DNA of 64,000 nt, from NCBI GenBank assembly GCA_949283025.1, contig CASDRB010000004.1:1-64000 (forward strand), read 5' to 3'. The position numbers and the translations under genes are program-made. The notes beneath the pieces are model-generated. The model ran no database searches and was not told where the DNA came from. It worked only from the letters and a program-made list of their open reading frames with translations. This stretch comes from an uncultured bacterium (lineage in GTDB: Bacteria; Bacillota_I; Bacilli_A; RFN20; CAG-826). Below are positions 46,404-60,188 of the stretch, in pieces (within the stretch, counting starts at the first letter, position 1; the number at the start of each line of letters is the position of its first letter).

Positions 46404-47447
46404 ATGAAACAAAAAGGATTTTGCATATTTTGTCATACAGGCGATGATTATGAACGTGTTTTTGAAGTTGAAACTAATGACGAATATTCTTATTGTCCTC
46501 AATGTGGAAGAAAAATAAAAACCGAAGATGCTGTTAAAGCATTTAAATCTAGAATTCAATTTTTGTTGAAAAAAGCATATTATGAATTCAACATAAAAAC
46601 AAAATATGATAAAGCATATGAAAAATTTGGAGATATTTTGTTATATGACGAAGATAACCCTGTAGCATTATGCGGAAGAATTGAATCGCTATTGATGATG
46701 TCCACATTGCGTCAACCTCGTTTTGAAGATGCCTCGGTTTTAATTAATTACGCTAGCAAGTCGCAATTACATAAATCAAAAAATATGATAGTTTATTTTG
46801 ATTTTTTATTAAAATATGAACGAATTGCACGTTTATATATCGAAAATATCAAAAAAATGCTAACTAATAAGAATTTCTTTTACGATGAAGAATGCGTTAG
46901 AATGTATGTATATCGTACTAACCAAATTAAACAATTCTATTCATTGATTTTGCAAGAGATATTGTTTTTATTAGGCAAAGGATTGAATTTGACTAACGCC
47001 GAATTAAAACGCGAGATGATTGAATTAAATGCAAAAAAAATTGATGATATTTTAAAAAGTTCATTTACATGTGTCGATGGAATTACTTATCGAATAAAAT
47101 ATATTCATGAAAATGAAATTTCTTTAGTAGATGATGGTATTAAAATTGATACGAAACTCAATGGTTATAAAATTTATTCGCTAGTGCCAAACGAGCAAAA
47201 AAAGCCAATTATTAAAGATCGTGTATTCAAATTAAATAGATTAAAATATGGCTTATTTATTTTTTCGATATTATCGATGAGCATGGCTGTAATTTGTGCC
47301 ACCGCATTTTTTGTTTTAGCTTTTTGTATACCGGTTTATCGAACAATTTTCTTTGTCGTTTTTGGTGTTTCAATATTGATTTTGATTGCGTGTTTATGCG
47401 CAAGATTTATTTTAAAAGCATTGATGAAAAAAAAGAAATTACATTAA
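46404..47447 (+). CDS. zinc-ribbon membrane protein of unknown function
   Basis: 347 residues. N-terminal Cys pairs FCIFCHTGDDY and YCPQCGRKIK form a zinc ribbon. The next about 230 residues are charged and helical, TPR-like in texture (KAYEKFGDILLYDEDNPVAL). The C terminus has two spans (about 280-340) and a Lys-rich tail. It lies 10 bp after the YhhN gene and is probably co-transcribed. It overlaps the convergent rdgB by 9 bp. No family is recognised. Confidence 0.72.
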   Translation: MKQKGFCIFCHTGDDYERVFEVETNDEYSYCPQCGRKIKTEDAVKAFKSRIQFLLKKAYYEFNIKTKYDKAYEKFGDILLYDEDNPVALCGRIESLLMMSTLRQPRFEDASVLINYASKSQLHKSKNMIVYFDFLLKYERIARLYIENIKKMLTNKNFFYDEECVRMYVYRTNQIKQFYSLILQEILFLLGKGLNLTNAELKREMIELNAKKIDDILKSSFTCVDGITYRIKYIHENEISLVDDGIKIDTKLNGYKIYSLVPNEQKKPIIKDRVFKLNRLKYGLFIFSILSMSMAVICATAFFVLAFCIPVYRTIFFVVFGVSILILIACLCARFILKALMKKKKLH

Positions 47448-48599: not shown

Positions 48600-48908
48600 T
48601 TATTGATTGATAAAATTAACAAGATGGTTTTTTGGCATAAAGCCAGATTGACGTTTAATTTCAACGCCATCTTTTAATAAAACTAATGTAGGTATCACTT
48701 GTACATGATATTTAGCGGCTACATCGCCAACTTTATCGACGTCAACTTTGACAATTTTTGCTTGTGTCAAATTTTGTTGATCTATTTCTTCAAGAACCGG
48801 AGCAAGCATGCGACACGGTCCGCACCAAGTAGCAAAAAAATCAACAAGCACCAATCCTTTTTCTGTTTCTGCTTTAAATTCATTTGTTGTTTCAATATGT
48901 TTGACCAT
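48600..48908 (-). CDS. trxA: thioredoxin
   Basis: 102 residues with VDFFATWCGPCRM (active site 28-32) and the cis-Pro segment VQVIPTLVLLKDG. A complete single-domain thioredoxin. AAAGGAG supports the start, and a good promoter lies upstream. It is the likely partner of TrxB (38947-39846). Confidence 0.95.
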   Translation of the reverse strand: MVKHIETTNEFKAETEKGLVLVDFFATWCGPCRMLAPVLEEIDQQNLTQAKIVKVDVDKVGDVAAKYHVQVIPTLVLLKDGVEIKRQSGFMPKNHLVNFINQ

Positions 48909-48933
48909 AGTATTTTTCTCCTTTGTTTATTCC

Positions 48934-48962
48934 ATATTAATTAGTTGCCCAAAAAATGTAAA
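48934..48962 (-). promoter_or_regulatory. trxA promoter
   Basis: On the minus strand TTTACA (48962-48957), 17 bases, TAATAT (48939-48934), followed by a short leader with AAAGGAG. Confidence 0.6.
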
Positions 48963-48974
48963 CTGATATGCTTT

Positions 48975-49865
48975 TTAAATTAATGTGCCAATAATAGCAA
49001 ATATGCCATATAGCAAAATCAAGTGAGCTGGATAATAAATATATGCGAAAATATTAAACCATTTTTTGTTGTATCCTCTTCTTCCGTTATAAAGCAGCAA
49101 TATGAATCCAGTTATAATAGCGAATAATTGGATATCAGGATTCCAATAAACCCACTTTGGATAAATAAAATATGTCGCGAAATATAAAAAAGATATAATA
49201 GTCAATCCCAAAAAACAAAAGGTATTAACATATATACGATAATTAAATGTGTTTAAATATAATTCGCTTTTAAATCCATAATAATCATATAATTTTGGAA
49301 CAATTTTATACGCTCCATAAAAAACTAAAATCATGCCGATTCCCAACCAATCATATTCTGGTCTTAATAAATATGGAAACCACCAAATAGTAATATTGTT
49401 TTCCCATTCTAAACAAGTACAAACAAATGCACATATTGAAATAGCGATTGGGATTAACCCTAATGATTTAACACCTTTGTTTTTATTTTCAAAACAATAA
49501 ATCATCAATGCACCCAAGATCAAAGTAATAAAGATATTTGTCGATTGAAATCGATAGTCAATGTTTGCTTTGCTAGCATAATACATAATTTCACCTAATG
49601 ATTGAAACAAAGCTATGCAAAAAGCAACGATTCCTAACCTCAACATATATTTCTTAAAATTGTGAGTATGCAAAACGCCTTCTACTAATAAAAAACAAAA
49701 TAGTGGTAGTGCTAAACGACCTATGTAGCGACAAATAGTAGAAACAATATAAATAGTAGAATTTTCTGGCATCATATTAAATAAAAACAGTCCAACATGG
49801 TCAATAGTCATTGATATTATGGCTATTAATTTTAGTTGAAAATTAGACAAAAAAAGTTTTTTCAT
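48975..49865 (-). CDS. TraX family membrane protein
   Basis: 296 residues from ATG 49865, which overlaps the stop of the CPBP gene (ATGA) and follows GGTGATGG; ATG 49880 is a possible alternative. About nine spans. IAIISMTIDHVGLFLF and YIGRLALPLFCFLLVEG are the TraX/acyltransferase-3-like N-terminal motifs with the conserved His. F-plasmid TraX acetylates pilin. Chromosomal Bacillota homologues are probably O-acyltransferases of unknown substrate. There is no conjugation context here. Confidence 0.85.
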   Translation of the reverse strand: MKKLFLSNFQLKLIAIISMTIDHVGLFLFNMMPENSTIYIVSTICRYIGRLALPLFCFLLVEGVLHTHNFKKYMLRLGIVAFCIALFQSLGEIMYYASKANIDYRFQSTNIFITLILGALMIYCFENKNKGVKSLGLIPIAISICAFVCTCLEWENNITIWWFPYLLRPEYDWLGIGMILVFYGAYKIVPKLYDYYGFKSELYLNTFNYRIYVNTFCFLGLTIISFLYFATYFIYPKWVYWNPDIQLFAIITGFILLLYNGRRGYNKKWFNIFAYIYYPAHLILLYGIFAIIGTLI

Positions 49866-50716
49866 TTGGCCATCACCCAATTTGCTAAAATCATCATTAT
49901 TACACTAAAAGAGTTGTTGATAATATGGGAAATACATGAACCAGCCCAAGAAGATTTTTCAAACACAAAACATAATATGGCGCCTGCAAAAATATAAGAA
50001 GGTATATTAATCAATTCAATTATTATTGAATCTAAAGAGTTGCCAAAACATGTAAAATCAAAATGAATAAATGCAAAAATCAATATGGTCAAAATATATG
50101 CCAATATCTTATTAATACGATAAAAAAACCCAAATACGCCAACCCGATAAGTGAACTCTTCAACAATTGGTCCGATTATTCCCAATAATAAAAGCGAGGC
50201 TAATGGATAATAATCGACCATGCTGATTGTAACTTGCTGGTTTGCGTTGCCACTCGTATTGTAAAAAATATTAATAAAAGCGCTATAGAACATGGAAACT
50301 AAAATCAAAACAATTCCACCGACAATTCCATATAAAATTTTTCTTTTATCGACACATTTAAATAAATCTTTTAAAAACGGATACATTATTCCTGTCAATA
50401 TGCACAAAATGATTGTATATGATATTGAATTAGTAAGCATGCTGACAAACAAAGAGAAACTTTCGTTATTAGGACAAACTTCTTTAGCATAAGGTATTAA
50501 TATTAATTGGATTATAACGCCAAGTATTTGAAAGCTAACAAATCCAACCAAAAAGAGTAATAGTTGTCTCCATGATTCAACAAAAAATATAAAATTTGAT
50601 GTAAGTGGTTTTGGGCGATTGGTGTTTTTGTATTGACATGACGGACAACGCAATAACAAATCATCATATTTATTTAAGCAATTCGGACAAATATTTTTTC
50701 TACTGTGGAATTTCAT
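49862..50716 (-). CDS. CPBP-family intramembrane metalloprotease with zinc ribbon
   Basis: 284 residues. N-terminal zinc ribbon (ICPNCLNKYD, LRCPSCQYK), then about eight spans. The CPBP/Abi motifs are GPIVEEFTYRVGVFGFFY (motif 1 Glu-Glu and Arg), FAFIHFDF (motif 2 His) and SHIINNS (motif 3 His/Asn). Family members are Rce1-like proteases, sometimes linked to bacteriocin self-immunity. TAAAAT lies seven bases before the ATG, with no ribosome site. It is translationally coupled to the TraX gene. Confidence 0.87.
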   Translation of the reverse strand: MKFHSRKNICPNCLNKYDDLLLRCPSCQYKNTNRPKPLTSNFIFFVESWRQLLLFLVGFVSFQILGVIIQLILIPYAKEVCPNNESFSLFVSMLTNSISYTIILCILTGIMYPFLKDLFKCVDKRKILYGIVGGIVLILVSMFYSAFINIFYNTSGNANQQVTISMVDYYPLASLLLLGIIGPIVEEFTYRVGVFGFFYRINKILAYILTILIFAFIHFDFTCFGNSLDSIIIELINIPSYIFAGAILCFVFEKSSWAGSCISHIINNSFSVIMMILANWVMAK

Positions 50717-50729: not shown

Positions 50730-50801
50730 CACAAATTATTTGATAAACACTAGCGATTATCATACATATAATGTATAATTTATGAGAAAGACTTGCTTTT
50801 T

Positions 50802-53800
50802 ATGCCGAACGCTGAACAAATTAATCAAATACTCAATTATTCTCTATTAGGTGTTTTTATAGCGATTATTGTATTCTTTGCAATTGCTTTAATCATAGGT
50901 TTATTTAAAGGTGTTTTTAGCACTACATTTAAATTATTTTTTATTTTAATGCTTGTTATTATTAGTTTTACTACATTGGATTTAATTTTTGATGCTGTTA
51001 GAAAAATTGATTTAACATCGCTTAATTATTATTTAAATTTAATAAATGAGTCAACAGGAGAAGCTATCTCCATACGTATAACTACCATAGAAGATACATT
51101 GGCCAATGCTATTGCTGGATTGATGTATTTATATAATGTATCTAGTGGTTCAAGCAGTGAAATTAGCGCTTTTGCTTATGGTTTTGCTGAGATGATTTTA
51201 AAATACGCAATTGTCATAGTTGATATGGTGTTAATTGCCACACTAGGATTTTTCACTGCTTGGATATTATGGCATTGCTGCTTTAAGTTTTTGATACCCA
51301 AATTAGCAAGAAAAGCAGTTAAGATTCGCTGGCTAGCCATGTTAGAAAATGGTGTTGCATATGTTATTGTTGCCGCCTTGTTTTTGATGCCTTTTACTTC
51401 GTTGGTCAATACTATAAACCAATCTTATCAGCGATATGGAAAACAAAGTGATGATTCAGTCGTTAGCGATATTGGATCATTTATTGATACTTATAATGAT
51501 TCCTTACTTGCTAAAACTTTTTTTAATTGGACTGTCGACGAAAATGGTACGACTATCGATGCACAGTTATTGGATTCCATCATTTCGACAACTGTAGGAG
51601 ATGTCGAAACATCATTAATTGAAACTATAAGTAATATTTCTGATATTGGCGCTTCGGTAATGGACGCTTTTTCTTCATCCAGCAATCAAATTTTCGATTA
51701 TGGAGTTTTGCTAAGCGAAGGCACATTGAAAAATATCTTCACCCATTTAAATGATACAAAATTGTTTGTTTATTTATTGCCAATTGTTGCTAATCTAGCT
51801 CTAAATTCCAATTTGTTAGCACAGTATGTCGACACATCGCTTTTGGAAATAGATGATATAAATTGGAGCCTGGAACTAGAAAATATAGAAAGGATGACAT
51901 TGGATGTTATCAATAGTGGTGTTTTAGATAACTTTATCAATGAAAATGGAGAATTTGTTTCTAATAGTGATACGACCGCTATTGTTACATCATTGCTTGA
52001 TAGAAATTCTTATTCGTATTTGACAAGAATCTTTGAATCAATCGACAATTCAAAATTATTAAGTAGGGCAATTCCATCAGTTTTATGGACCGTTTCCGAA
52101 ACATATTCTGCCATAAATGATATATTGCCATTATCATGGTCGGAAATGAATAATTATCAATGGGGAAAAGAATTTACTATTATATATGATTGTTTATTTA
52201 GAATGAATCAAACAGATCCAGAAATGGTGAACTTGATTTTAAATTTTGATTCGAATCAAACATCGCAAAATCAATCTATTTTATATCAAAATAACGAAAG
52301 TTCTAACAATGATTTGATGGATATTCTAATTAAAAATGTCGATGCTTTGAAAACAATTTTAATTGGCGAATTTGACCAAAGTGGTAATTTGTTAAATTGC
52401 GATTCTAATGGAGTTACTATCGTTTATCAAAATGGGCGCAAATTACCTAATCGCCATTATAGTTTATTCGATTCAAACATCGTCAAAAATATTTTTCCAA
52501 GTTTAGCCAATTCCTTAATTGATTTGTTGCCAACTTCTGAGGATGTATCACTTGATAAAGATGCTGTTATTAGTGTCATTAATAATTTATATGAAGGCGA
52601 AATTATTAAAAATTTCAAAATCGAATTTGCTTCTATTTTGGATTCTTTTTCTAAAATTGTAAGCAATGACGAATTGTTAAATATTATAAAAAATCCTTCT
52701 AGCATAGACGAAAGTTTTATACATAATCAAAATACAATTAAATCTTTCCAAGAGGTGTTGCCATCTTTAGATAAATCAAAAATCATTTCTGCAGCAGTTA
52801 GACCTGTGCTAAAAAACATGCTTTTGAATGGCGAAATTGCTGAACAATTTAAAAATGTTGGAATAGATCCAGAAACATTTGATTTAGATATGCCTAATTT
52901 AGGTAGCGAAATTGCTCATTTGTTGGACGCGGTTAGTTGTTTTGATTTAATCGAAGACATTAACAACTCTAATGCTAGCAGTCAAGATATTGTCATAAAG
53001 ATGGCAAATAATTATGAATCTATTGCTGTAATTTTAGATGTCGTTTTCGAATCGCAAATTATTAATCCAAGTGATGATTTTTATGGAAATTATGATAATA
53101 ATTTTTTCAATATTCTAAATTATATATTCGAAGGTCCTAATGGAAAGACAAACCTAGTTAAAGGATTAATTTTTGATGAATATAAAGTCGGTTTTTATCC
53201 TGAAAGCCATGGAGCAGGCAAACATAATTGGAATAACACTAAAGCACCAAATGGTGAATATTTTAAAGATGGTTATGGACGACCCATATTCGATGGAGAA
53301 AACGGCTATATCGCCCAAGTTATTGCTACTCTTGGCACTAAGTCAAACGACGGACAAACTTTGTTTGAAGTTGTTTCTTCTAGCGATGTAGTTTCTCAAA
53401 TTGGGCGTTTAGAAAAAGACTTTAATATCTCTGGATTATTTAAAGCCGTTGATAATTCATCTTTATTTTCTACTACTTTTGGTAGTTTTTTGGATGAAAC
53501 TTTATCAAGCAATGATTTAGATTTGATCAATGTAGCCGAGGGAAGAACGTTTACTCAAATTAATGATTGGACACTCGAAGGAATAAAATTTGGGCGAATA
53601 TGTGATTCGATTGATCAACTTGGTGTTGACTTGAACAATCTTGATATAACAAATATTAAAAATATTCCTGCTCTTAATAAATTGTTGCACTCTTTATCTG
53701 ATAGTGGACTTTTTGGCGTAGGTGACAATCAATATAATTTCAATGTTTTTATTTATCAAAAATTGCAAGATAATTTTGCTGATTTTAATTATGATTTGAC

Positions 53801-56800
53801 ATCTGATCCGTTTTCCTATGAAACCGGCAATCCTACATATCAAAAAATCATGAATGACTTTGATGTTTACGTTGAACATGGTTCTAGTGGTGATGTTTTC
53901 CTTAGCAATACTAGCAAAGATATTTGGGTAAGCGAAGAATGGATGAATAAATTTATCGATTTAGATTTCTCTAAACCTAATGCGATGGATGGTGTTAATT
54001 TAGATGAATTTTATTCTAGTGACACTATCGGACGAGTTTGTCGAGTTTTAGATGAGATGAACAAGGGATTAGAAGCGGCTAACGAAACAGAAGAACAATA
54101 TGGCAATATTGCCGATGCTATTAATGCCCAAGCCGTTCCAACATCAAATTTAAGAAAAATATTGCTAGCTATGAATGATGCTGATCAATTTAGGATGGTC
54201 ATTTATCATCTTGTCGATATCATTAGAGATTATGATGCATCAAAGTATGGTTTTGACTTGAATAAAATTAATGCTGAATATATGTGTGACGACGGCGAAT
54301 TTTATAATCATGTTACCACTAAAGAAGAACGTGAAGTCGAAATTAATTATTTAGTTGATATTTTAGACATTTTCAATAAATTGAATATTAAAGATGAAAA
54401 TGGTGAATTTGATACTGATACATTGACAAAAGATCCTAACAACATGGTTAGATTGCTGCCAGCAATGGAAATGATGAATGAATCTTGTTTGTTCCATAAG
54501 GGTGAATTCGCTATCATGCATTTTGATATCGACAATCAACAAGTGATTTCATATTTTGATACGACCGTCTTTCAAGATGTAATTAAAGAATTTGTTATCG
54601 ACCAGTCGATTGGAAATTTCTATTATTTAGCAGATTCTCCAAAAGATATTTATTATGATGATATTTATGTAGATGTGAATAGTAAAGCTGAGCACTTTAT
54701 ACCGATAATATTCCCAAATATTGGAGACGAAAATATTTTTGCCAAGGAAAAAGAAGAGATAATTCGCATTGTTGAATTATTGTCATCATTGACTGGCTCT
54801 TATCGTAATATCGAGCAAGTCGACTTAAAAATTAATCCCGATACTGGATTGGAACATGCATATTATGGTGATAGATTAGCTGATGAAAACGATTTATATC
54901 AAGGCATTCCATCAAAATCAAATCCAGGAACGGTTACAATCAATATTAATGACATGGATTTTGATAATATTGGTTCACAATCAATTCAAGACATTTTAAC
55001 TAATTTTAATTCTTCTGATTTATTGTATGATTGCGCTCCAAATGCTTTAAATACTGTATTTAAAAATCTTGATGTTGGAGCTTTGACAGAAGCTATGCAA
55101 AAAGCCGATCCTTTCTATTTGTATTATATTAATTCTGCTTCCAATCCCAATTTCGAAATAAGATATGTCAATGTAGAAAGAGCGGATCGTGAAGATGCAT
55201 ACGAAATAGAAAATATCGCCAATGTAATCGAAAATTATAAAAAATTGCAACGCGAACTTAATGATGCTGGAATTGCTAATTTTGACGAAATATTTACAAT
55301 TACCGATGATTTGGTTTTAGATAAAGTCAATGGTGCGATAGTCGATTTGTTGGTTTCTTTTAAAAACACGTACACATTGCATAAAGGCACAGCTGTCATG
55401 AATGGGGCATATTTAGTTAATCAATCGACAATAAATCGAAATTTAAGTGCATTTGAAACATTAATAAAATCGTTATATATTCGTACTGGCTTAATGGAAT
55501 TAGCTAAATTACCTGCTTCATTGAGCGCTGATAGCCAACTAACTGCCAAAATTAAATTGTTGACGCAACAAGACGTTAATTTCAATGCTGGAATCAATGA
55601 TGTTAATTATATTGGATATTCTAAACAATGGAACGACGAGATTGAAGCATTCTTTGATTTTGTTTTTGATATCAATAAGTTTATTACCAGCGGAGAACTT
55701 GATTCTTTTGAATTTGATTTAAATTCTCCAAATGCTTCTCCTGAAAGTATCAGCAACATATTATATCGCATCAATAAATTGGATTTAGCAGAGGGAGCTT
55801 TGCCTAATTTATTGAAAAAAACTTTCACCCAATTTGGTTTATCGCAATTTTCTAGTTATGGTAATGATGAAAACGCAGATAAGGCTAACTATTATTTATC
55901 TCAACATGAATATGGCGGAGACAATAATGATGGTGGGGAAATTGATAATATCTATAATTTGTTAAATGAAATGCAAATCAAGGACGATCAAAGCCAATTC
56001 GGTGGCTATGTTAAAATTGAAGGCGCTGATGGCGATGCGATTAAACAATTTGTTGAAGAAAATGGTAAATCTAGCAAAATTTTAACAAATTTTGTCTACA
56101 ATAGTTTGCTTTACAACGGTGCATTTGAATTATCAAGCAACATCAATCCAGGAAATATCACATATGTAAATTCTTTATTTTATTATAATATTGCAAGCAA
56201 AACTGGAATTGAAAAATATATTTTAGGTACGCAAGATGCATCTGATAGTTTAAGTTATAACGATTCACGCATTCGCACAATCAATAAATTATTAAATGAT
56301 CCAACTATACCATTTAACCCTGATAATGAAGGCGAATCGTTTGATAATTTAATTACTCATTCAGATTCTTTTACCGGCGGATTTAAAAATGATGACATTG
56401 ACCAAGTAAAATCAATAAAAGAAGCCATCGTACTAATTTTAGATTCATTGACAATTACCGAAGAGGATGGTTCGATTACACGAGCCTATGTTGCCTCAGA
56501 GATGGTTGCAGGTATTTTGCAGCCATTGTTACAAATAGAAGTAAAAAATATTGCCACCATTGATGAGCCAAAAATGATTTATCCACGCATGGATAATCAA
56601 CATCAAATTATTGACAACCCTTCTTCTAGTATTGATCGTGGTTATTTAAATAAATTATATTCTCAAACATATGATTTGTTAAATGATTATGAAGCTGTTG
56701 CTTTAGATGCTATTTTAGATTTTTATGATCCAAATGCATCAAATGTTAATGATTATTTGGAGAAATTTAATACATTAGACGATTCATTTAAAAAGATGGT

Positions 56801-57038
56801 TTACACTGATGTAGACGGCATTGAAAAGAATTCTATTATGGCTAGTATTATTTATTGCTCAAGAATTAATCCGATGATTGTTTCGTTTAATAGCAGTTTG
56901 CCTCCTTTTGGGCAACAATACGCCCTTCCTGAAGCGGATGTAAATGAATTTTTAGATTATGGCCGATCTAATGAAAATCCAGGCATTTCCATTTATGCAT
57001 ACTATCAATCTTTAGTTAGCAAATTGAATCAAATATGA
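50802..57038 (+). CDS. giant membrane-anchored repeat protein (2078 residues)
   Basis: The start is taken as ATG 50802; the frame opens at TTG 50793. Spans at about 14-36, 43-64, 132-160 and 182-202 form a CvpA-like N-terminal membrane domain. About 1870 residues follow without another clear span or cell-wall signal. This part is made of degenerate helical repeats: a short Asn/Asp-Ser/Lys-x-Leu turn then a Pro-containing hydrophobic helix, near residues 315 (NDTKLFVYLLPIVANL), 413 (DNSKLLSRAIPSVLW), 654 (DKSKIISAAVRPVLK), 882, 965, 1123, 1403 (NSSDLLYDCAPNALN) and 1656 (NKLDLAEGALPNLLK). Most units then carry a W-x-x-E helix. No enzymatic motif is visible. It is translationally coupled to yigZ. 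Function unknown. Confidence 0.85.
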   Translation: MPNAEQINQILNYSLLGVFIAIIVFFAIALIIGLFKGVFSTTFKLFFILMLVIISFTTLDLIFDAVRKIDLTSLNYYLNLINESTGEAISIRITTIEDTLANAIAGLMYLYNVSSGSSSEISAFAYGFAEMILKYAIVIVDMVLIATLGFFTAWILWHCCFKFLIPKLARKAVKIRWLAMLENGVAYVIVAALFLMPFTSLVNTINQSYQRYGKQSDDSVVSDIGSFIDTYNDSLLAKTFFNWTVDENGTTIDAQLLDSIISTTVGDVETSLIETISNISDIGASVMDAFSSSSNQIFDYGVLLSEGTLKNIFTHLNDTKLFVYLLPIVANLALNSNLLAQYVDTSLLEIDDINWSLELENIERMTLDVINSGVLDNFINENGEFVSNSDTTAIVTSLLDRNSYSYLTRIFESIDNSKLLSRAIPSVLWTVSETYSAINDILPLSWSEMNNYQWGKEFTIIYDCLFRMNQTDPEMVNLILNFDSNQTSQNQSILYQNNESSNNDLMDILIKNVDALKTILIGEFDQSGNLLNCDSNGVTIVYQNGRKLPNRHYSLFDSNIVKNIFPSLANSLIDLLPTSEDVSLDKDAVISVINNLYEGEIIKNFKIEFASILDSFSKIVSNDELLNIIKNPSSIDESFIHNQNTIKSFQEVLPSLDKSKIISAAVRPVLKNMLLNGEIAEQFKNVGIDPETFDLDMPNLGSEIAHLLDAVSCFDLIEDINNSNASSQDIVIKMANNYESIAVILDVVFESQIINPSDDFYGNYDNNFFNILNYIFEGPNGKTNLVKGLIFDEYKVGFYPESHGAGKHNWNNTKAPNGEYFKDGYGRPIFDGENGYIAQVIATLGTKSNDGQTLFEVVSSSDVVSQIGRLEKDFNISGLFKAVDNSSLFSTTFGSFLDETLSSNDLDLINVAEGRTFTQINDWTLEGIKFGRICDSIDQLGVDLNNLDITNIKNIPALNKLLHSLSDSGLFGVGDNQYNFNVFIYQKLQDNFADFNYDLTSDPFSYETGNPTYQKIMNDFDVYVEHGSSGDVFLSNTSKDIWVSEEWMNKFIDLDFSKPNAMDGVNLDEFYSSDTIGRVCRVLDEMNKGLEAANETEEQYGNIADAINAQAVPTSNLRKILLAMNDADQFRMVIYHLVDIIRDYDASKYGFDLNKINAEYMCDDGEFYNHVTTKEEREVEINYLVDILDIFNKLNIKDENGEFDTDTLTKDPNNMVRLLPAMEMMNESCLFHKGEFAIMHFDIDNQQVISYFDTTVFQDVIKEFVIDQSIGNFYYLADSPKDIYYDDIYVDVNSKAEHFIPIIFPNIGDENIFAKEKEEIIRIVELLSSLTGSYRNIEQVDLKINPDTGLEHAYYGDRLADENDLYQGIPSKSNPGTVTININDMDFDNIGSQSIQDILTNFNSSDLLYDCAPNALNTVFKNLDVGALTEAMQKADPFYLYYINSASNPNFEIRYVNVERADREDAYEIENIANVIENYKKLQRELNDAGIANFDEIFTITDDLVLDKVNGAIVDLLVSFKNTYTLHKGTAVMNGAYLVNQSTINRNLSAFETLIKSLYIRTGLMELAKLPASLSADSQLTAKIKLLTQQDVNFNAGINDVNYIGYSKQWNDEIEAFFDFVFDINKFITSGELDSFEFDLNSPNASPESISNILYRINKLDLAEGALPNLLKKTFTQFGLSQFSSYGNDENADKANYYLSQHEYGGDNNDGGEIDNIYNLLNEMQIKDDQSQFGGYVKIEGADGDAIKQFVEENGKSSKILTNFVYNSLLYNGAFELSSNINPGNITYVNSLFYYNIASKTGIEKYILGTQDASDSLSYNDSRIRTINKLLNDPTIPFNPDNEGESFDNLITHSDSFTGGFKNDDIDQVKSIKEAIVLILDSLTITEEDGSITRAYVASEMVAGILQPLLQIEVKNIATIDEPKMIYPRMDNQHQIIDNPSSSIDRGYLNKLYSQTYDLLNDYEAVALDAILDFYDPNASNVNDYLEKFNTLDDSFKKMVYTDVDGIEKNSIMASIIYCSRINPMIVSFNSSLPPFGQQYALPEADVNEFLDYGRSNENPGISIYAYYQSLVSKLNQI

Positions 57039-57406
57039 TTGTTGAAAAAATAGTTAAAAGTGAACTTATAGAAAATAAATCGAAATTTATTTCGATTATT
57101 TTTCCTTTGCAAGAGCAAGAAGAATACAAACAAATTATAAAGCAATTAAAAAAAGATTATAAAGACGCCAAACACATTTGCTTTGCTATGCGTTTTAAAT
57201 CATATGCAAAATGCGATGATGATGGTGAACCAAAAGGCACAGCTGGATACCCAATATTGAAAGTTTTGCAAACAAAGGATTTGGATTGTTGTCTTTTAGT
57301 AGTTATTAGATATTTTGGTGGTGTAAAATTAGGTGCAGGCAGATTATTAAGAACTTATGTTAAATCTGCTGCTGATGTTACAAATTTAATGTTAAAGGCT
57401 AATTAA
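57035..57406 (+). CDS. YigZ/IMPACT-type protein, N-terminal domain only
   Basis: 123 residues against about 200 for typical YigZ, because the C-terminal DUF1949 domain is absent. The UPF0029 core is intact: SKFISIIFPL, DAKHICFAMRF, DDDGEPKGTAGYPIL and VIRYFGGVKLGAGRLLRTY. The family is thought to act in translation regulation or as a peptidase-like factor. The start overlaps the giant gene (ATGA) and pepP follows 12 bp later, so it sits inside an operon. Confidence 0.85.
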   Translation: MIVEKIVKSELIENKSKFISIIFPLQEQEEYKQIIKQLKKDYKDAKHICFAMRFKSYAKCDDDGEPKGTAGYPILKVLQTKDLDCCLLVVIRYFGGVKLGAGRLLRTYVKSAADVTNLMLKAN

Positions 57407-57418
57407 GGAGGAGCGCAT

Positions 57419-58690
57419 ATGTCTGAATTTGAAAATCGAAGACAAAAATTATTTGATTTAATCCCAGAAGGAAGCGTTGTTATTGTTCATTCTGGGGTGA
57501 GCAAAATTGCTAGCGAGGATGAATTTTTCCCTTTTAGAGTAAACAATAACTTCTTTTATTTAACTGGAATTAAACAAGAAAATTCTGTATTGTTCATGGT
57601 TAAAAATTTAGGTGTTAAAAAGACATATTTATTCATAGATGAATACTCAGCGTTGAAAGAAAAATGGACCGGAAAAAGGTTAAGCGTTGAAGAGGCGTCG
57701 ATGATTTCAGATATAAAAAATGTATTGACTAATAATGTCTACGAATCTCAATTGGATTTAGCTATTCAGGATGGTTCAACACATTTTGGAACGATTGAAA
57801 AACTTTATATTGATTTATCTGAAGAATTAAAAATCGGTCCTAATACATCAACTAAAGAGTTTGAAAATAGAATTCATGAATTATATCCTCATATCGAGGT
57901 GTTAAATATTAGACCACTGATATGTAATTTGCGAATGGTAAAAAGCAATTATGAAATTGAGTGCATTAAAAACGCTATTAATTTAACTCATCATGGCATC
58001 AATCAAATGTTGATGTTGATGAAAGAGGGAATGAAAGAATATCAACTTGCAAATATTTTCGAATATTACGGAAAAGACAAAGATAAAACGCCACTAGCTT
58101 TTGATACGATTGTGGCTGCAGGAAAAAACGCTACCTGTTTGCATTATCCAAGTCAAATGGATCGTTTAAAAGCAACGGATTTGGTCCTTTTTGATTTAGG
58201 ATATAGCGTTGATGGATATTCTGGCGATATTTCAAGAACATATCCAATAAGCGGTAAATTTAACGATTTGCAACGTCAAATTTATTCGGTTGTTCTTTTA
58301 TGCAATAAAGCTGTTATTGAGTATGCAAAGCCAGGTTTGACATTGATGGATTTACAAAATTATTGCGTTGATTTTTTTAAAAATGAATTGCTTAGAACAT
58401 CCCTTTTAAAAGAAGAAGATGATATTAAACAAGTTTATTATCATAGCGTCTCGCATCATCTAGGTTTAGACACACATGATATTTCTGATCGAAATCTACC
58501 ATTGCAACCTGGCAATGTCATTACGGTTGAGCCAGGATTATATTTTGCAAAATATGGAATTGGAATTCGAATTGAAGACGACATATTAATCAACGAAAAT
58601 GGATGCGAAGTTTTATCTCGTTCAATTAAAAAAGAAATTGATGAAATAGAAGATTTGTTAAGTTCTATAAAATTCAAAACTAGAGGTTAA
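57419..58690 (+). CDS. pepP: Xaa-Pro aminopeptidase (aminopeptidase P, M24B)
   Basis: 423 residues. The N-terminal AMP-N domain has FFPFRVNNNFFYLTGI. The M24 metal ligands are in order: LVLFDLGYSVDGYSGDISRT (two Asp), HSVSHHLGLDTHD (His), VEPGLYF (Glu) and IRIEDDIL (Glu). The enzyme removes N-terminal residues before proline. A strong AAGGAGG precedes the ATG. It ends one base before glpK. Confidence 0.93.
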   Translation: MSEFENRRQKLFDLIPEGSVVIVHSGVSKIASEDEFFPFRVNNNFFYLTGIKQENSVLFMVKNLGVKKTYLFIDEYSALKEKWTGKRLSVEEASMISDIKNVLTNNVYESQLDLAIQDGSTHFGTIEKLYIDLSEELKIGPNTSTKEFENRIHELYPHIEVLNIRPLICNLRMVKSNYEIECIKNAINLTHHGINQMLMLMKEGMKEYQLANIFEYYGKDKDKTPLAFDTIVAAGKNATCLHYPSQMDRLKATDLVLFDLGYSVDGYSGDISRTYPISGKFNDLQRQIYSVVLLCNKAVIEYAKPGLTLMDLQNYCVDFFKNELLRTSLLKEEDDIKQVYYHSVSHHLGLDTHDISDRNLPLQPGNVITVEPGLYFAKYGIGIRIEDDILINENGCEVLSRSIKKEIDEIEDLLSSIKFKTRG

Positions 58691-58691
58691 T

Positions 58692-60170
58692 ATGAATAAA
58701 TATATCTTAGCTATTGATCAAGGAACAACATCCACTCGAGCAATATTATTTGATCGAAAATCTATCCCATTGTATAGCGCTCAAAGAGAGGTCAAATGCT
58801 ATTATCCACATTCAGGATGGGTTGAATCTGACCCTTTAGAATTGTGGGTTAGTGTTATTGATGTAATCAATGAGATTTTAGTTAAAGCAAATATTACCAT
58901 GAAAAATATTGATTCTATCGGAATCACTAATCAACGTGAAACTACTATTGTATGGGACAAAGAAACTGGCATGCCTGTATATCGCGCCATTATATGGCAA
59001 TCGCGCCAATCTAACGACATTTGCGAACGTTTAAAAAAATATGAAAAGTTCATTCAATCAAAAACAGGTTTAATTATGAACCCATATTTTTCGGCTTCAA
59101 AAATTCGTTTCATTTTAGATCATATTCCTAATGGTCAAGAAAGGGCTAGAAAAGGTCAACTAATGTTTGGCACAGTTGATACTTGGATATTATATAAATT
59201 AACTAGTGGAGAAGTCTTTGCCACAGATGTCAGCAATGCTTCTAGAACTTTGTTGTTTAATATTCACACCATGTCTTGGGATAAAGAATTATGCGATTTA
59301 TTCGACATACCGATGAATATGTTGCCTATTGTTAGACCTTCGTCGTATCGCTTTGGAAAAGCTTCATTTTTTTCTAGTGAGGTTTATGTTTGTGGAATTG
59401 CTGGAGACCAGCAAGCCGCTTTGTTTGGGCAAACTTGCTTTGAAAAAGGTGAAAGTAAAAATACTTATGGAACAGGATGTTTTATGTTGTTAAATATTGG
59501 CGATAAACCAATGATTTCTACTAATGGATTATTGACGACTGTCGCTTGGCAAATTAAAGACAAGGTCACTTACGCTTTAGAAGGATCAGTTTTTATTGGC
59601 GGTGCTGTTGTACAATGGCTTAGAGACGAAATGCAATTAATTGAAAAAGCATCTGATTCTGAAAAAATGGCTAATAAAACAGACGATTGCAATGGCGTGT
59701 ATATTGTACCTGCTTTTGTTGGATTAGGCACTCCTTATTGGGATAACGATGCTAGAGGAGCGGTTTTTGGTTTGACAAGAGGAACAAATAAGTACCAATT
59801 TGTTAGAGCCTCGCTTGAAGCCATTGCTTATCAATGCAAAGATGTCATTGAAGTGATGAAAAAAGATTCTAATTTGAAAATTAAAACATTGAAAGTTGAT
59901 GGTGGTGCAACCGCAAATAATTATCTAATGCAATTTCAAGCAGATATTTTAAACACCCCCCTTAAATTGCCTAAATGTTTGGAAACTACTGCTTTAGGCG
60001 TTGCTTATTTAGCGGGATTAGAGAGTGGATATTTTAAATCTTTAGACGATATTAGTTCATGTCATGTTCATAAATTAATTTATGAACCAAACATGTCAAA
60101 AAATGAAATTGATCGCCGATATAATGGATGGAAAAAGGCGGTTGAAGCTACTCAAGTATTCAAGATATAG
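58692..60170 (+). CDS. glpK: glycerol kinase
   Basis: 492 residues, standard length. AIDQGTTSTRAILFD is the phosphate-1 motif; GITNQRETTIVWD and IWQSRQSND bind glycerol; YGTGCFMLLNIG is phosphate 2; VDGGATANNYLMQFQADIL is the adenosine motif. It phosphorylates glycerol to glycerol-3-phosphate. No glpF or glpO/D is adjacent. AGAGG lies before the ATG, and it is the last gene of the operon, followed by a terminator. Confidence 0.96.
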   Translation: MNKYILAIDQGTTSTRAILFDRKSIPLYSAQREVKCYYPHSGWVESDPLELWVSVIDVINEILVKANITMKNIDSIGITNQRETTIVWDKETGMPVYRAIIWQSRQSNDICERLKKYEKFIQSKTGLIMNPYFSASKIRFILDHIPNGQERARKGQLMFGTVDTWILYKLTSGEVFATDVSNASRTLLFNIHTMSWDKELCDLFDIPMNMLPIVRPSSYRFGKASFFSSEVYVCGIAGDQQAALFGQTCFEKGESKNTYGTGCFMLLNIGDKPMISTNGLLTTVAWQIKDKVTYALEGSVFIGGAVVQWLRDEMQLIEKASDSEKMANKTDDCNGVYIVPAFVGLGTPYWDNDARGAVFGLTRGTNKYQFVRASLEAIAYQCKDVIEVMKKDSNLKIKTLKVDGGATANNYLMQFQADILNTPLKLPKCLETTALGVAYLAGLESGYFKSLDDISSCHVHKLIYEPNMSKNEIDRRYNGWKKAVEATQVFKI

Positions 60171-60188
60171 ACGGGCTAGCCCGTCTTT
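60169..60188 (+). terminator. intrinsic terminator after glpK
   Basis: AGACGGGCTAGCCCGTCT is a perfect 18-bp palindrome overlapping the glpK stop codon (stem of about seven pairs allowing for the loop), followed by a short T-rich tail. Confidence 0.75.

Follow-up and report, generated by a model that had tools for sequence, protein, structure and literature searches.

What does a giant, repetitive, membrane-anchored protein do for an uncultured bacterium of the order RFN20 (class Bacilli_A)? The protein in question is encoded in a 64,000-nucleotide stretch of contig CASDRB010000004.1 (assembly GCA_949283025.1), the whole of which is referred to here as the window. Its open reading frame (ORF) occupies positions 50802–57038 on the forward strand and codes for 2,078 residues, with an ATG at 50802 and a stop codon ending at 57038; an alternative TTG start at 50793, nine bases 5′ of the ATG, would give three extra residues. 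A sequence-only reading had described a CvpA-like membrane anchor followed by degenerate helical units, had weighed a periplasm-spanning or lipid-transfer scaffold against a surface adhesin, and had suggested profile self-comparison, structure prediction of the full chain and a search for homologues. Going beyond that reading, we find that the gene sits at a fixed locus and that its product belongs to a large family in which length changes with the number of repeats, and we propose, at what we judge to be about an even chance, that the protein is a length-variable surface stalk that would serve attachment from its four-span anchor.

Degenerate repeat units

Plain BLASTP self-comparison of the window protein detects no repeats, which are visible only to profiles and must therefore be truly degenerate. 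A hidden Markov model (HMM) of unit 1, built from Q303–382 and its orthologues only (44 members), recovered 64 downstream copies at an independent E-value (i-E) below 0.1 in 25 of the 44 proteins, as against one copy in 5× shuffled and one in reversed sequences. An iterated 105-residue model found 358 units at <1e-3, with none in 3× shuffles and one in reversed sequences, and detected at least one unit at i-E < 1e-3 in 15 of 16 further members that had been left out of model building. Units 1 and 2, aligned separately and compared profile to profile, matched at 95.2% (E 2.6e-8), with negative controls at 0.2–0.3%. At the level of sequence profiles, self-comparison thus yields significant similarity, and internal repetition beyond chance is confirmed.

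In the window protein itself, the 105-residue model identifies eight significant units of about 105 residues and three weaker ones, in agreement with the earlier count of at least eight; the profile controls for these are near zero. Because the reversed control of this model climbs to 21 at <0.1, and so rises at looser thresholds, the three weak units need cautious reading. The unit consensus is roughly a helix xxIFxxLxxS, a helix LLxxxLPxxixxxL, a variable polar loop and a helix WxxElxxlxxlyxxL, and it agrees with the motif first proposed (a polar turn, S-x-L, a Pro-containing hydrophobic helix and a W-x-x-E helix). The units, and the segment that follows them, are arranged along the gene as follows.

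51690..51998, forward strand: repeat unit, residues 297–399 (i-E 3.7e-11)
51990..52286, forward strand: repeat unit, residues 397–495 (i-E 4.6e-13; matched to unit 1 by hhalign as given above)
52419..52718, forward strand: repeat unit, residues 540–639 (i-E 8.5e-6)
52719..52982, forward strand: repeat unit, residues 640–727 (i-E 5.9e-12)
52995..53387, forward strand: weak repeat unit with a polar insert, residues 732–862 (i-E 0.076)
53415..53687, forward strand: repeat unit, residues 872–962 (i-E 1.8e-11)
54114..54452, forward strand: repeat unit, residues 1105–1217 (i-E 9.2e-10)
54552..54827, forward strand: weak repeat unit, residues 1251–1342 (i-E 0.24)
54948..55313, forward strand: repeat unit, residues 1383–1504 (i-E 6.6e-13)
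55566..55730, forward strand: weak, partial repeat unit, residues 1589–1643 (i-E 0.0016)
55719..56060, forward strand: repeat unit, residues 1640–1753 (i-E 1.7e-10)
56439..57035, forward strand: C-terminal segment, candidate tip, residues 1880–2078 (conserved polar residues R1894, S1899, E1900, E1964, N2010, S2011 and Y2018, taken from the invariant columns of alignment A5 and renumbered by +1039)

Membrane anchor and predicted topology

Hydropathy places four N-terminal spans at about residues 15–33, 45–63, 137–160 and 180–202, which bears out the four-span anchor of the sequence-only reading. The absence of an LPXTG motif, read from the sequence, also stands, and the membrane anchor is N-terminal rather than C-terminal. 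Two elements precede the repeats.

50802..51437, forward strand: four-span CvpA-like anchor, residues 1–212, predicted N-out/C-out (hydropathy, charge pattern, PF02674 matches of sister members, hhalign)
51438..51689, forward strand: juxtamembrane module FxDaYnnS..A..FFNW....G.TlD, residues 213–296 (Y231, S234 and D253 near-invariant in alignments A2 and A4)

In 44 family members, the loops between spans 1–2 and 3–4 are basic (mean net charges of +2.5 and +6.8, respectively), and the N-terminal tail, the central loop and the 60 residues that follow span 4 are acidic (means of −1.5, −4.1 and −5.1); the balance runs in the same direction in all 44. By the positive-inside rule this pattern implies an N-out/C-out protein, and the repeats are therefore predicted to lie outside the cell. 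Past residue 230 the net charge amounts to −157 in the window protein and to between −42 and −290 in the relatives listed, all examined ectodomains being acidic.

The relation of the anchor to CvpA is less direct. PF02674 (CvpA/Colicin_V) has no match in the window protein, and no recognizable CvpA was found elsewhere in its genome. One sister member (G058) scores above the curated cut-off, only with neighboring stretches counted, and three others (G038, G048 and G085) score below it. Comparison of the giant family with the true CvpA proteins of the order by hhalign gave 72.8% (E 3.2e-5) over only 42 columns, with negative controls at 0.2–0.3%. The two groups share four spans, a basic turn and a G-x-x-[KR]-G motif after span 1, with at most a weak, partial similarity of profiles, whereas the CvpA proteins of the order have about 175–300 residues and lack a repeat ectodomain. 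The earlier description as CvpA-like therefore holds through the sister matches and the partial alignment, but not through any match of the window protein itself; we retain the term for a resemblance that is supported only indirectly, and do not assign the anchor to the CvpA family. A comparable layout is found in MarP (Rv3671c), a mycobacterial membrane serine protease in which four N-terminal spans are followed by an extracytoplasmic domain (PMC4992679), although that domain is a trypsin-like protease and contains no repeats.

A large family of variable length at a conserved locus

The search for homologues uncovered a large family across the order and the class, which in the order is mostly found at a fixed locus. 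A profile of the first 700 residues (E ≤ 0.001) matched 163 of the 279 genomes in the order, among them 92 of the 150 with good quality, and 107 of 291 good-quality genomes from a class-wide sample; since some of the matching proteins are short CvpA proteins of 250–300 residues, the giant form is at most as frequent as these counts. The largest ORFs among the matches reach 4,461 residues and, in the class-wide sample, 6,056 residues, and lengths in the family extend from about 600 residues to more than 6,000. The repeat is also shared by distant members outside the family of the host, in other families of the class. One member is located on a single-contig genome of 1,496,992 bases. In a contig search the window protein alone gave no match, and an alignment query gave 13 named loci, titled uncultured Bacilli, Erysipelotrichaceae and Bacillales.

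Members in the order range from 619 to 3,907 residues at nearly always the same place, and the longer ones tend to have more units (Pearson 0.82, Spearman 0.63, for unit number against length). In the sister species of the window's genus the proteins are about 540 residues longer, and where they exceed the window protein a module of two units is found in tandem, its copies being 44–74% identical. Class-level members contain tandem units of 71–93 residues at up to 85–96% identity, so that repeat amplification is still going on in the family. Identity to a close relative is 28–37% in the distal half, as against 34–56% for the remainder.

Some individual members deserve separate mention. Near-identical tandem repeats occur in L150 (residues 1881–2600), L148 (residues 1231–1656), L145 and L144. 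Genome G022 encodes a pair (L038/L050): a member of 619 residues sits at the conserved locus, and a paralogue of 2,190 residues lies elsewhere. In G121, G122 and G123, which belong to one genus, an in-frame TAG lies inside the matched N-terminal part (L103, L116 and L117); the cause may lie in the choice of start site, in a broken gene or in recoding.

The genes on either side of the giant gene define the locus. Divergent CAAX and TraX genes adjoin it in 40 of the 43 other order-level members, and yigZ follows directly in most. In all 13 examined relatives that lack the giant gene, the CAAX gene and yigZ are adjacent and have the same neighbors, forming a clean empty site, from which we conclude that the giant gene is dispensable for life. 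Since the trx–TraX–CAAX cassette is kept beside yigZ where the giant gene is absent, its conservation is independent of that gene. An ancestral gene followed by several losses would be the simplest history of the locus. In the window, the neighboring features are the following.

48600..50716, reverse strand: divergent trx, TraX-like and CAAX-protease genes (Pfam PF05857 and PF02517; conserved neighbors)
50744..50772, forward strand: promoter-like site TAAACA-17-TATAAT (10 of 12 matches in a consensus scan only; site count in the region near chance)
57035..60170, forward strand: yigZ (UPF0029), pepP and glpK, co-directional (Pfam for yigZ and pepP; conserved order)

The stop of the giant gene overlaps the start of yigZ by 4 nucleotides, the next two intergenic gaps are short, and a terminator-like stem is present at 60169–60186, after glpK. 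The operon with yigZ, pepP and glpK suggested by the sequence-only reading is thus plausible, and the four genes probably form one. Farther away, positions 46404–47447 encode a protein of 347 residues whose N-terminus may form a zinc ribbon and whose C-terminal part has two spans, and for which a Pfam scan gave no family above cut-off; ORFs of similar size recur beside rdgB in related loci.

Predicted structure and searches for known families

The full chain was covered by two overlapping AlphaFold2 models, of residues 1–1060 (pLDDT 72.1, pTM 0.57) and 1040–2078 (pLDDT 76.5, pTM 0.68). Both are mostly helical with few short strands, so that a helical fold is predicted, if with only moderate confidence. 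Foldseek searches with both halves gave no match at E ≤ 1e-3 against the PDB, and likewise against BFVD. The top resemblances of both halves are to HEAT/ARM α-solenoids (karyopherins and importins), but at E 0.02 and a TM-score of about 0.1 these are insignificant; Pfam gives no HEAT/ARM match, and the solenoids in question are cytoplasmic eukaryotic proteins.

Searches of sequence families likewise gave no match to the repeats. Pfam scans found no repeat family (HEAT, ARM, TPR or others) in the window protein or 20 members, and no S-layer domain in the window protein and members. No Pfam or NCBIfam family exceeds its cut-off in the window protein, consistent with the earlier statement that it contains neither a known repeat family nor an enzymatic signature. 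Matches to PDB sequences, namely viral capsid proteins (E about 0.3) and a designed helical repeat (E 0.2), were judged to be due to chance. An NCBIfam match to AlbA (E 0.0026, with 16 bits where the cut-off is 850) was rejected, as were scattered Pfam matches in single relatives (DUF7212, DUF5332, HDOD and DUF7779), because no single stretch passed where listed; we regard all of these as chance or as tandem-summed scores. In L149 and L150, HDOD and DUF7779 rise above the cut-off although no stretch passes by itself, probably because the scores of tandem repeats are added up, and such summed scores call for caution in the automatic annotation of this family. An origin in defense systems or phages, including a phage tape measure, is unsupported: PADLOC gave no match, and among the PHROGs there was a single weak match, to a group of unknown function (E 0.042). 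Searches of the open-access literature yielded no account of the family. As far as these searches reach, the repeat, the anchor and the length series at a fixed locus appear to be new, whereas giant repetitive surface proteins are a known kind.

Host envelope, proposed role and alternatives

The host genome is 97% complete, and searches of it found no penicillin-binding protein (PBP) transpeptidase, no Mur ligase and no Omp85. Such a gene content is naturally read as that of a cell bounded by a single membrane and lacking peptidoglycan, in which nothing would separate the ectodomain from the medium. Most RFN20 genomes lack mraY and murG (PMC7301438). Of 295 sampled genomes, about 53 have a member of at least 500 residues, and PBPs are present in 9 of these, some of the carriers with PBPs belonging to other families; this ties the giant gene to the lineage and not strictly to wall loss.

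In the stalk that we propose, the four CvpA-like helices would be embedded in the single membrane with the N-terminus, the central loop and the C-terminal part outside. We infer that the remaining ~1,870 residues project from the cell as a string of some ten degenerate helical units, that the length of this string is set by gain and loss of tandem units, and that its distal part probably binds a surface, a neighboring cell or a matrix polymer. The strongest points for a stalk are (i) the predicted location outside the cell, (ii) the variation in repeat number at a fixed locus and (iii) the clean dispensability of the gene, which resembles that of accessory surface proteins; the lower conservation of the distal half and the recent tandem amplification point in the same direction. 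The surface adhesin of the sequence-only reading is thereby supported as a possibility. Several observations weigh against the stalk: no binding domain is recognized and no ligand is known; the partners yigZ, pepP and glpK are housekeeping genes that give no hint of adhesion; the topology is a prediction from the charge rule; the moderate AlphaFold2 models cannot tell an extended from a compact shape; and the few carriers with PBPs mean that the function is not linked to wall loss.

The likeliest of the alternatives, though itself unlikely, is that many copies stand side by side in a layer that protects or shapes the cell and makes up in part for the missing wall, in the manner of an S-layer. 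The lack of wall genes in the host and in most sampled carriers, the predicted extracellular, acidic ectodomain and the very large investment for a 1.2-Mb genome would all fit such a coat. However, the gene is cleanly absent from the 13 close relatives, and the four of these that were tested are all equally devoid of PBP transpeptidase; a sixfold spread in length at one locus would be odd for a lattice, and some carriers do have PBPs.

Somewhat less probable is that the four-span part is the functional element, acting in transport, stress or envelope homeostasis, with the repeat chain as an arm that docks or senses for it. In enterics CvpA is linked to resistance to bile salts: enterohemorrhagic Escherichia coli (EHEC), like Vibrio, requires it to resist deoxycholate (PMC6705877). 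Moreover, most near-invariant residues of the giant protein are in the anchor and the juxtamembrane motif, and the genome has no other recognizable CvpA. Yet CvpA has no known biochemistry, divergence has put the anchor of the window protein out of reach of PF02674, and relatives exist in which neither gene was detected (G020 and G021).

We rate a little lower again the possibility that the stalk is a cell–cell contact factor that binds partner microbes in anaerobic consortia. The accessory presence of the gene would agree with this, as would the varied uncultured sources indicated by contig titles, at least one of them yak omasum, but the sources are read from titles only, and neither a partner nor a ligand domain has been identified. 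The periplasm-spanning or lipid-transfer bridge first considered, to which a long, probably extracytoplasmic repeat protein with hydrophobic helices might have been suited, is very improbable and largely refuted, since a host without Omp85 and peptidoglycan enzymes gives no hint that there is a second membrane to reach, the models predict helices rather than a β-groove, and no lipid-transfer family matches.

For a surface stalk, a parallel in architecture, the only level at which we compare them, is Gli349, the leg protein of the wall-less Mycoplasma mobile, which has 3,183 residues with 18 repeats of ~100 residues and is essential for binding and gliding (PMC7052211). On our reading, both are giant membrane-anchored surface proteins of wall-less bacteria with repeats of ~100 residues; Gli349, however, has one N-terminal transmembrane segment in the published scheme and works within a gliding machine that has no known counterpart here. 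Among giant Gram-positive adhesins, Embp of Staphylococcus epidermidis and the 7,651-residue Ig-repeat adhesin of Mobiluncus mulieris (PMC9302970, PMC10619420) are likewise very long, repetitive attachment proteins on the surface, but they are built from other repeats in walled bacteria, and no similarity to them was found in the family searches.

More tentatively, and with rather less than an even chance, the findings may extend to the class as a whole: a new extracellular α-helical repeat would there form a genetically adjustable surface stalk in mostly wall-less bacteria, held by a four-span anchor, placed at one locus in the order and varied in repeat number through tandem duplication and loss. 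If right, the stalk reading would define a large family of surface proteins for which Pfam has no model, in uncultured bacteria that are among the least known, and would account for a gene that ranks with the largest of their small genomes. The natural length series at one locus, with its matched empty sites, would also make a direct test of the effect of stalk length possible.

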